DNA from: Candidatus Gastranaerophilales bacterium
GTDB taxonomy: Bacteria; Cyanobacteriota; Vampirovibrionia; Gastranaerophilales; Gastranaerophilaceae
Direction of reading: 5' to 3'
Assembly: GCA_944322785.1 (NCBI GenBank)
Contig: CALUPW010000002.1
Span: 62,001-126,000 of the forward strand
DNA length: 64,000 bases
The notes under the pieces were generated by a model. It had not been told where the DNA came from, did no database searches, and saw only the letters and a program-made list of their open reading frames with translations. Shown piece after piece: positions 11,025-47,396 of this stretch (positions within the stretch are counted from its first letter, which is position 1; each line of letters opens with the position of its first letter). Both the position numbers and the translations under genes were made by a program.

Positions 11025-11059
11025 GATTTTGCAAAAGGAGCTTTGAAAGGATAAAAAGT

Positions 11060-11122
11060 ATGGAAACTATTGATATGACTGGATTTCAGGGGGGGGGGGC
11101 AACCCGTAAAACTGGCTCCTGA
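11060..11122 (+). pseudogene. 5' leader ORF with 11-G tract, closed by TGA upstream of the prepilin
   Basis: ATG 11060 follows RBS-like AAAGG and reads METIDMTGFQ, then an uninterrupted run of 11 G (11089-11099), then GGATRKTGS and TGA at 11120. It is in the same frame as the prepilin downstream. The second copy (46439 onward) has the same leader, with TGT where this copy has TGA. Removing one G would move the leader into another frame that stays open to about 11330. Either this is the broken natural start of the prepilin gene or a short leader peptide. The G-tract is a candidate slippage site. Confidence 0.45.
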
Positions 11123-11138
11123 TGTGGTTTACAGAAAC

Positions 11139-11449
11139 GTCATTCCGGACCTGATCCGGAATCTATCAATGCAGATAAAGACAGACTCCGGCTCGGGGGC
11201 CGGAGTGACAATGGCAACCGGACGCCACATACCAAATCCCGTCACTCTGACAAAAGTCAGAGTTTATCAATGCCGGTTAATTCAATATGTCACCCTGAAC
11301 TTGTTTCAAAATCTCAAAATAAAGAAATAGATTCCGGCTCGCAGGCCGGAATGACGAAACCGTTACCTGTGTATTTGCCATGTCATTCTGAGCTTGACTC
11401 AGAATCTATCAATGTTGATAACAGACTCCGGCTCGCAGGCCGGAGTGAC
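11139..11449. repeat. cluster of dispersed palindromic elements, copy 1
   Basis: Modules begin GTCAYTC and carry a short hairpin, then GAATCTATCAATG. They often pair head-to-head so that GTCATTCCGG at one end matches CCGGAGTGAC at the other. Units seen: 11139-11209 (complete), 11241-11263 (half, arms ACTCTGAC/GTCAGAGT), 11289-11354 (mixed) and 11382-11449 (complete). The segment 11131-11308 is identical, by eye, to 46511-46688. All three forward frames stay largely open, giving repeat-encoded peptides such as CHPELVS, HSELDSESIN and VIPDLIRNL. Confidence 0.85.
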
Positions 11450-12109
11450 CAATTAAGCCGCAAAGCCGCTTTTACCATGGCAGAGGTTTTGATAACACTT
11501 GGCATAATAGGAATAATAGCCGCAATGACGCTGCCGTCTTTAATTCACAGAGCTGAAAGAAAGATTCTGGCGCAGCAATTCAAAAAATCGTATGCAAACA
11601 TTCAAAACGCAATCAATTTGGTGCAAGCTGACTGGGGCGCGCCTTATGAATGCTACTGGCAGCAGAATGGTGGTGAAAGCAATGGTTATAATCTTGAACA
11701 ATGTTCAGAATTTTGGACAGCGTTTTTAAAGAAAATCAGATATATACAAGTTTGCAAACGTGATGACTATGAATGTCATCCGAAGTACAAAACAAAATCC
11801 GAAGTTCTGGCTGAAGGCGGTGAAGTTATTAACAATTCTTGCTCAATGAATTTTTCTTATGCAAATTTTTACATATTAAATGACGGCACGTATATAATGA
11901 TAAAAAATGATAACCCTGGAGTGTCACACCATCAGGTATATTTTCTGATAGATGTCAACGGCAAAAGAGGGCCGAACAAATGGGGATATGACCTTTATTA
12001 CCTGACACTGAACCGTGAGGATTTGAAAAAAGACGTGATAGTTGCAAATGAAGTTTGCGCAATGAAAGAAAAAGGCGGAATGTATATTAATGAAATGTTA
12101 TTAGAGTAA
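11270..12109 (+). CDS. prepilin-like protein with repeat-derived N-terminal extension
   Basis: The recognisable protein starts at KAAFTMAEVLITLGIIG (about residue 66), followed by a hydrophobic helix and a ~185-residue Cys-containing domain (ECYWQQ, EQCSEF, VCKRDDYECHPKYKTK, NEVCAMKEKGG). The first ATG in frame is 11270. It lies in repeat DNA without an SD, so the first 65 residues are translated palindromic elements. A plausible older start, ATG 11060, is cut off by TGA 11120. A normal prepilin leader has about 5-25 residues, so processing of this long form is doubtful unless cleavage is still at the A-F bond. The paralogue at 46467 has a very similar C-terminal domain. Expression state is uncertain. 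Confidence 0.65.
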   Translation: MPVNSICHPELVSKSQNKEIDSGSQAGMTKPLPVYLPCHSELDSESINVDNRLRLAGRSDQLSRKAAFTMAEVLITLGIIGIIAAMTLPSLIHRAERKILAQQFKKSYANIQNAINLVQADWGAPYECYWQQNGGESNGYNLEQCSEFWTAFLKKIRYIQVCKRDDYECHPKYKTKSEVLAEGGEVINNSCSMNFSYANFYILNDGTYIMIKNDNPGVSHHQVYFLIDVNGKRGPNKWGYDLYYLTLNREDLKKDVIVANEVCAMKEKGGMYINEMLLE

Positions 12110-15043: not shown

Positions 15044-15113
15044 GTCACTCCGGACTTGATCCGGAGTCTGTTTCTATCTGCATTGATAGATTCTGAGTCA
15101 AGCTCAGAATGAC
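15044..15113. repeat. palindromic element, complete head-to-head unit
   Basis: It begins GTCACTCCGGACTTGATCC and ends AGCTCAGAATGAC. The two halves have their own small hairpins (CTCCGG/CCGGAG and TTCTGA/TCAGAA) and join through the TATCTGCATTGATAGA core. It is the same family as the clusters at 11139 and 46519, here in non-coding DNA and in opposite orientation. Confidence 0.8.
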
Positions 15114-15182
15114 GGAATGGTGCCCGTCGACGCCGACACGGCTCAGTCATGAAAAAAAGTCACATGTGACAGTACCCTATAC

Positions 15183-15210
15183 GTCATTCCGGCCTCCGAG
15201 CCGGAATCTA
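15183..15210. repeat. palindromic element, single half
   Basis: GTCATTCCGG, then a loop, then CCGGAATCTA. It has the hairpin of the family without the second half. Confidence 0.7.
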
Positions 15211-46252: not shown

Positions 46253-46438
46253 TATTCTTCTCTCCTTATAAAAATGTTACCGGATTATAATATCATAAAA
46301 ATGTTTATCAAAAAATTACAGTTCAAATTTTTGACAAAATAGCGATAATAGAGAGATATTATTATAATATTGTAAAATTTCAAAAACTTGTTATAATAAA
46401 AAAGTAAAAATATTAAAATACAAAGGAGCTTAAAAAGT

Positions 46439-46487
46439 ATGGAAACTATTGATATGACTGGATTTCATGGGGGGAGGGGCAACCCGT
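46439..46487 (+). other. 5' leader of the second prepilin locus (frame-shifted G-tract)
   Basis: AGGAG (46424-46428) precedes ATG 46439, which reads METIDMTGFH and GGRGNP before TAA at 46487. The first 9 residues equal those of the leader at 11060. The tract here is six G, A and four G, and the leader is out of frame with the prepilin. Loss of one base in the tract would join them. ATG 46467, in the prepilin frame, lies inside the tract. Confidence 0.45.
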
Positions 46488-47396
46488 AAAACAGGCTCCT
46501 GTTGTGATTTACAGAAACGTCATTCCGGACCTGATCCGGAATCTATCAATGCAGATAAAGACAGACTCCGGCTCGGGGGCCGGAGTGACAATGGCAACCG
46601 GACGCCACATACCAAATCCCGTCACTCTGACAAAAGTCAGAGTTTATCAATGCCGGTTAATTCAATATGTCACCCTGAACTTGTTTCAGGGTCTATCAAT
46701 GCTTATAGAAACAACCTACGCAGCATAGGCCGGAGTGACCAATTAAGCCGCAAAACCGCCTTCACCATGGCAGAAGTTCTGATAACACTCGGCATAATCG
46801 GCATAGTCGCCGCCATGACATTGCCTACAGTAATCAACCGAGCGCAACGAAAAATTCTAACCCAGCAGTTCAAAAAATCCTATGCAACCGTACAAAACGC
46901 AATCAATCTCGCTCAATCAGAGTGGGGTGCGCCTTATGAATGTTATTGGTTAAAAAAAAGTGCTAATGCAGGCTATTATCTTGACCAATGTTCTGCATTC
47001 TGGGATGCATTTTTAAAGAACGTAAAAATTATTCAAAAATGTGACGGTGATGATTACGACTGCCACCCGAAGTATAAAACAAAAGCCGAGGTTCTGGCAG
47101 AAGGTGGTGAGGTGCTAAATCCGTCCTGTTCAATTGATTTTCCTTATGCTAATTTTTATATATTAAATGACGGTACATATATAATTATAAACAATAACAA
47201 CCCGGGAACGTCGCACCATCAGATATACTTTGCTATAGACATAAACGGATCTAAAGGTCCGAACAAATGGGGATATGACCTGTATTATCTGACTCTGAAT
47301 CGAGAAGATATGAAGAAAGACGTGATAATCGCCAATGAAGTATGTGCTATGAAAGAGCGTGACGGAATGTATATAAATGAAATGCTTCTGGAATAA
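46467..47396 (+). CDS. prepilin-like protein, second repeat-bearing copy
   Basis: 309 residues from ATG 46467. About the first 97 are translated palindromic elements (RHSGPDPESIN, CHPELVSGSIN). Then come KTAFTMAEVLITLGIIG and the C-terminal Cys-containing domain like 11270 (ECYWLKK, DQCSAF, KCDGDDYDCHPKYKTK, NEVCAMKERDG). The nucleotide match to copy 1 is near-perfect through 46511-46688 but clearly lower through the prepilin domain, so the 5' part was homogenised or inserted more recently. Here the frame is open through the whole 5' region, with no stop as in copy 1. Whether the long N-terminus is made and processed is unknown. Confidence 0.65.
   Translation: MGGGATRKTGSCCDLQKRHSGPDPESINADKDRLRLGGRSDNGNRTPHTKSRHSDKSQSLSMPVNSICHPELVSGSINAYRNNLRSIGRSDQLSRKTAFTMAEVLITLGIIGIVAAMTLPTVINRAQRKILTQQFKKSYATVQNAINLAQSEWGAPYECYWLKKSANAGYYLDQCSAFWDAFLKNVKIIQKCDGDDYDCHPKYKTKAEVLAEGGEVLNPSCSIDFPYANFYILNDGTYIIINNNNPGTSHHQIYFAIDINGSKGPNKWGYDLYYLTLNREDMKKDVIIANEVCAMKERDGMYINEMLLE
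46519..46739. repeat. cluster of dispersed palindromic elements, copy 2
   Basis: Units at 46519-46589 (complete head-to-head), 46621-46643 (half) and 46669-46739 (mixed, shorter than copy 1). The first part is identical to copy 1, but the 11309-11381 segment of copy 1 has no counterpart, so one module was gained or lost between copies. Confidence 0.85.

Follow-up and report, generated by a model that had tools for sequence, protein, structure and literature searches.

The pilin loci of this Gastranaerophilales genome are best read as a repertoire of type IV prepilins that is OFF by default and gated by slippage in poly-G runs, probably at replication (roughly 60% probability). At most loci the run shifts the start codon by one base relative to the prepilin frame, with a stop codon only a few codons further on (OFF), and gain or loss of one G fuses leader and pilin into a single ORF (ON). 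Slips in these runs, probably while DNA is being replicated, would turn on single pilins in a minority of cells, such that each cell would display none or few of ~40 variants. Candidatus Gastranaerophilales are non-photosynthetic relatives of Cyanobacteria found in animal guts, and the records used here are metagenome assemblies. No earlier description of pilin switching in this group was found in the open-licence literature. If the reading is true, repertoires of up to ~50 poly-G-gated pilins per genome would rank with the largest phase-variable sets made up of a single family and would explain why Gastranaerophilales pilin genes look broken to gene callers.

Poly-G runs in the leaders of a pilin family

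We searched the whole genome (1.95 Mb in 18 contigs) and identified 72 matches to the prepilin motif PF07963. Among 45 runs of at least nine Gs, 37 were followed at a distance of 24-777 nt by an N_methyl motif on their own strand, against an expectation of about one; as in contingency loci, the homopolymers are far above chance in pilin genes. About 38 pilin loci carry such a run, typically of ~12 Gs, and they have a common architecture: behind a ribosome-binding site and start codon come 8-14 codons, then ~9-15 Gs and finally the prepilin motif. By sequence, the run belongs to the leader segment that prepilin peptidase is expected to cut off, and an alignment of 37 paralogs shows F1, T2 and E5 of the N-terminal cleavage and methylation motif to be invariant. 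A Shine-Dalgarno (SD) sequence and a start codon are present at nearly all tract loci, on which ground silent partial copies of the neisserial pilE/pilS type were rejected. Leader types include METIDMTGFQ, MVKKQTMIEIQ, MKTILGKW, MFKTLTTRGIQP and MAKRNNSLKITQ. The genome search for further copies that was proposed in the first-pass annotation returned 16 occurrences of the METIDMTGF leader (allowing up to three mismatches) and 23 of the sequence after the run, with none for the reversed-pattern controls. Prepilin genes free of a run have a plain in-frame SD and ATG (for example, MKKAFTMAE) in 20 of 24 readable cases and thus provide an internal control for assembly quality.

A model of the mature domain (pLDDT 83) consists of a long N-terminal helix at residues 3-55 followed by five to six strands forming a beta-sheet head, the arrangement expected of a pilin. 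A Foldseek search of the PDB with this model gave no convincing match, and sequence matches to pilins were weak (best 6gv9, E 0.055). As putative prepilins, the products would be processed by prepilin peptidase and assembled into a pilus.

Runs also occur outside the pilins. A family-8 glycosyltransferase gene (L144:1080-2000; contig C4, ~173978) starts with MTITEFNRGGGN and has a G10 run in frame, so leaders and runs of this kind extend to a second gene class. On contig C3 (L141:965-1876, ~164861), an acyltransferase-like ORF, whose Acyl_transf_3 match is below cut-off, contains a G12 run and, behind it, the family's CAACCCGTAAAACAGCTCCT; the leader cassette may have moved into this non-pilin gene. 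Surface-glycan genes of these kinds (glycosyltransferase, acyltransferase-like) are typical targets of phase variation. A 255-aa ORF without assigned function has an in-frame G13 run at its middle (L139:556-1323; contig C2, ~29529), and an orphan leader cassette, MPKKQTMIEFTGGGG with repeats, lies at ~139260 of contig C4 (L143), with no prepilin motif found downstream. A scan of viral contigs yielded no copies. Contigs in four genomes (G005, G006, G007 and G013; L229, L257, L258 and others) often end at pilin leaders, and metagenome assemblies therefore probably undercount these loci.

Frame state and run length

The frame census covered eight genomes of the genus. Of 144 usable loci, 134 are free of stops from the run to the prepilin motif, and in these 134 the start codon was +1 relative to the prepilin frame in 106, in frame in 16 and at offset 2 in 12. 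The run-to-motif frame is thus largely intact and all three frame states occur, as in a one-unit toggle; in this genome, only 1 of 29 clean loci was in frame. Run lengths track their flanks, being 12 where the ON length is 11, 13 where it is 12 and 11 where it is 10. When run lengths were shuffled among clusters of similar flanks in 20,000 trials, none reached the 47 of 60 non-redundant flank clusters that have a +1 majority (permutation mean, 23.7), which rules out a constant mutational run length. In the +1 frame, 128 of 134 loci have a stop within six codons of the run; in the other wrong frame, 41 of 134 do. Under plain phase variation the frames would be expected to be mixed, whereas the OFF frame is nearly uniform and one of the two wrong frames is preferred; without additional selection, plain phase variation does not explain this pattern.

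Poly-G is error-prone in sequencing and contigs often end at these loci (L257, L258 and L229), which might suggest that the frame offsets are sequencing or assembly artifacts. We regard this as scarcely credible: substitutions within the run conserve its total length (CA+G12, C+G13, CAA+G11 and CAT+G6AG4), and this compensation rules out a sequencing artifact; in addition, lengths follow the flanks rather than any fixed error, and independent assemblies from several studies agree.

To cover the family, we used a pattern combining a ribosome-binding site, a run of at least 10 Gs and a prepilin motif, with a short leader required. Of 383 family genomes, 69 carried it, spread over 12 of 41 genera, and the reversed-pattern control gave no match; with its short leader, the pattern undercounts this genome (2 matches versus 38 loci). 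When 386 genomes were sampled throughout the Cyanobacteriota, every match belonged to this family. The modal wrong frame was +1 in genera g1 and g11 (38 of 46 loci in g11) and offset 2 in g7 and g22, with mixed frames in g10 and g38; the offset is thus conserved within genera and, these two aside, opposite in sign between them. In genome G210, 46 of 47 loci were exactly G10 at offset 2, and in G034 offset 2 was found at 23 of 28 loci; in both, a stop falls within four codons in the offset-2 frame throughout. The cut-off of at least 10 Gs hides shorter runs, but two genomes rescanned at seven or more had almost none, so the offset-2 mode in G210 and G034 is real. Together with g11, these counts reveal that well-sampled genomes each have one modal wrong frame, one base off ON and promptly stopped.

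Sequence lying 10-15 nt beyond the run complements the ribosome-binding site (for example, AGGAGCU with AGCUCC, and GGAGGUUAA with UUAACCUCC). Pairing with the locus's own site scored 11.74, above the maximum of 2000 permutations (11.59 overall and 11.44 within genus), as expected if SD and anti-SD covary, although pairing was weak in g10, g41 and g3. Among six folds, a single one stood out as stable, and energies were otherwise unremarkable. The pairing is probably an accessory feature, which in some genera would tighten the OFF state. In g10 (G022, G130 and G111), the sequence that follows the run folds on itself as a small perfect hairpin (GTGCCTTAACAGGCAC, CCGGCTGAGCCGG) in place of an anti-SD.

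Two loci of the window and their shared 5' block

Two of the pilin loci, copy 1 and copy 2, lie in the window, the whole 64,000-nt stretch that was analysed. Their parts, all on the forward (+) strand, are as follows.

Copy 1:
11052-11308, +, homogenised 5' block (alignment)
11060-11122, +, leader ORF METIDMTGFQGGGATRKTGS from ATG 11060, ending in TGA (sequence)
11089-11099, +, uninterrupted G-run, G11 (sequence)
11139-11163, +, palindromic repeat in the leader (repeat search)
11184-11209, +, palindromic repeat in the leader (repeat search)
11330-11355, +, palindromic repeat in the leader, absent from copy 2 (repeat search)
11424-11449, +, palindromic repeat in the leader, absent from copy 2 (repeat search)
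11471-12106, +, mature prepilin, beginning FTMAEVLITLGIIGIIAAMTLP (N_methyl match, alignment)

Copy 2:
46422-46429, +, Shine-Dalgarno AAAGGAGC, complementary to GGCTCC at 46494 (sequence)
46431-46688, +, homogenised 5' block, 98.1% identical to 11052-11308, with 46508-46688 identical
46439-46489, +, short leader ORF METIDMTGFHGGRGNP from ATG 46439, with its stop directly after the G-run (sequence)
46467-47396, +, prepilin-frame ORF of 309 aa, its start an ATG that arose at the run (ORF)
46469-46479, +, interrupted G-run GGGGGGAGGGG, G6AG4 (sequence)
46494-46499, +, putative anti-Shine-Dalgarno GGCUCC (complementarity to the SD)
46519-46543, +, palindromic repeat GTCATTCCGGACCTGATCCGGAATC in the leader (chance expectation 0.00)
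46564-46589, +, palindromic repeat GACTCCGGCTCGGGGGCCGGAGTGAC in the leader (chance expectation 0.00)
46761-47393, +, mature prepilin, beginning FTMAEVLITLGIIGIVAAMTLP (N_methyl match, alignment A1, pilin-like model)

Aligning the two loci gave 98.1% identity over 258 columns between the 5' blocks (11052-11308 and 46431-46688), and in both copies the near-identical block begins upstream of the ATG. The longest exact match is 181 nt (11128-11308 and 46508-46688), in good agreement with the ~178 nt noted by eye in the first-pass annotation (11131-11308 and 46511-46688). Across the prepilin parts (11380-12097 and 46667-47384), identity falls to 76.8% in DNA and 77% in protein, and 29 of 53 comparable fourfold-degenerate sites differ. 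The prepilin domains are therefore as clearly different as that annotation had stated, and the similar identity throughout that would have indicated a simple recent duplication was not seen. The contrast between 98% in the 5' part and 77% in the prepilin part also bears out its view that the 5' part was homogenised: with so many fourfold sites changed in the domain, the leader cannot be a mere inheritance from the same duplication, and the 5' part of this pair was copied or homogenised afterward.

A second pair behaves in the same way. The leaders of C2:52149 and C2:176386 are 100% identical over 341 nt, with ~60 nt of shared 5' sequence and near-identical upstream bases, whereas the mature proteins are ~73-76% identical and identity drops along the coding sequence. 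At many other loci, leaders match in mosaic blocks while the domains are different or unrelated. Leader identity combined with diverged domains in several pairs supports the view that the 5' block behaves as a homogenised cassette while mature domains diverge. Simple duplication of the window pair with a faster-evolving mature domain and no 5' exchange would fit the homology of both loci, which extends throughout, but it is very improbable: the 181 identical leader nucleotides stand against the changed fourfold sites, a synonymous divergence that rules it out, and the second pair has a fully identical leader beside a diverged domain. Of the cassette-like exchange that had been suggested, the homogenisation thus stands, with the second pair in support, but the two-locus picture does not, as there are ~38 loci.

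The homogenised block contains the ribosome-binding site, leader, run, repeats and sometimes the first pilin helix. Palindromic repeats lie in frame within leaders of this genome, lengthening them and supplying part of the shared leader sequence; in this they may resemble Rickettsia-type palindromic elements. The same repeat types were also observed between ORFs, outside pilin leaders, at positions 15044-15208 of the window.

The frame states of the two copies were as previously described: copy 1 is stopped by a TGA, and copy 2 has an interrupted run with an ATG in the prepilin frame. Compared with the rest of the genus, these odd states are exceptions to the general pattern, and the G-run is the main feature of these loci rather than an incidental frameshift. 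Copy 1 has a run at ON length yet a TGA in the leader frame, and is therefore probably defective or differently started. In copy 2, the frame from the ATG at 46467 is unbroken to 47396; having lost the uninterrupted run and regained a prepilin-frame ATG, this copy is probably no longer switchable. Only one other locus in this genome, C7:24601 (G5AG4), has an interrupted run, and there a single open frame leads from MQTMIEIQ via the repeats into the pilin; the METID start of copy 2 is out of frame, with a new in-frame ATG at the run. These two cases, although few, fit the idea that an out-of-frame state would persist only where slippage can correct it.

Alternative readings and known systems

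An alternative to a DNA switch is programmed slippage at the RNA level, in which RNA polymerase stuttering on the G-run or ribosomal frameshifting yields some full-length prepilin from the out-of-frame gene in every cell and the one-base offset is the designed state. This is a serious competitor, though in our judgment the less likely reading. It is favoured because the offset is uniform and tuned: the offset is conserved and adjusted to the flanks, the wrong frame that prevails (+1 in g1, offset 2 in g7 and g22) is exactly the one with a prompt stop, run length in G210 is nearly invariant and out-of-frame genes keep long intact ORFs. Against a single ribosomal mechanism, the direction varies by genus, with +1 in g1 and g11 but offset 2 in g7 and g22, and frames are mixed in g10 and g38. 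Runs of 11-13 Gs are also expected to be unstable in DNA, as is established for other bacteria, and G-runs occur in surface-glycan genes as well. Slippage in DNA is favoured because of these glycan-gene runs, the in-frame variants and the precedent of Bifidobacterium pili, and both kinds of slippage may act. The uniform one-base offset permits a clean discrimination between the two. Equally tentative is a broader proposal, that the family keeps dozens of pilin genes deliberately out of frame, masked by a prompt stop and a sequestered ribosome-binding site, and that programmed RNA slippage or rare, tuned DNA slips release about one variant per cell; this would amount to a numbers-based, one-at-a-time pilin display.

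Pilins might instead be translated from starts downstream of the run or from prepilin-frame starts before it (TTG in ATGATTGAA), leaving the run and short ORF as a leader peptide or relic with no gating role. A prepilin-frame TTG does precede the run in 64 of 106 +1 loci, and copy 2 has its ATG at the run. However, 37 of the 106 have no such start, METID leaders included, the conserved ribosome-binding site is that of the 0-frame start, and this explanation gives no reason for the tuning of run length to frame; we consider it improbable.

Replication slippage in poly-G thus remains our preferred reading, and its closest parallel is the sortase pilus of Bifidobacterium breve, another gut commensal, where pilin genes with G11 or G12 runs near the 5' end are out of frame by default and switched by replication slippage (PMC9187656). 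There, the first pilin gene is split by default into two out-of-frame ORFs, which single-base slippage restores (PMC9187656). Those are actinobacterial sortase pili at one or two loci per genome, whereas here the genes encode predicted type IV prepilins at up to ~50 loci per genome, the run lies in the cleaved leader and the switch is proposed from sequence. Contingency loci of Campylobacter jejuni and Neisseria likewise place poly-G runs of comparable length within the coding sequence of surface genes; C. jejuni NCTC11168 has 29 poly-G/C runs of at least 7 (PMC4965091). Those loci span many unrelated genes, in contrast to the single dominant gene class and single uniform OFF frame found here. 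As in pilE/pilS of Neisseria gonorrhoeae, there are many pilin variants per genome with gene conversion among them, but every locus here has its own start and ribosome-binding site, and it is the 5' part that is homogenised, whereas pilE/pilS exchanges the variable 3' part into one expression site. Finally, in the leader-peptide attenuation of Pil1 of Streptococcus gallolyticus, slippage in an upstream short ORF also sets how far ribosomes reach before a structured element that governs the pilus genes (PMC3894217). In that system a GCAGA repeat and a transcription terminator precede a separate pilA ORF (PMC3894217), whereas the short ORF of the present loci forms the leader of the pilin itself, and their element would pair with the ribosome-binding site.
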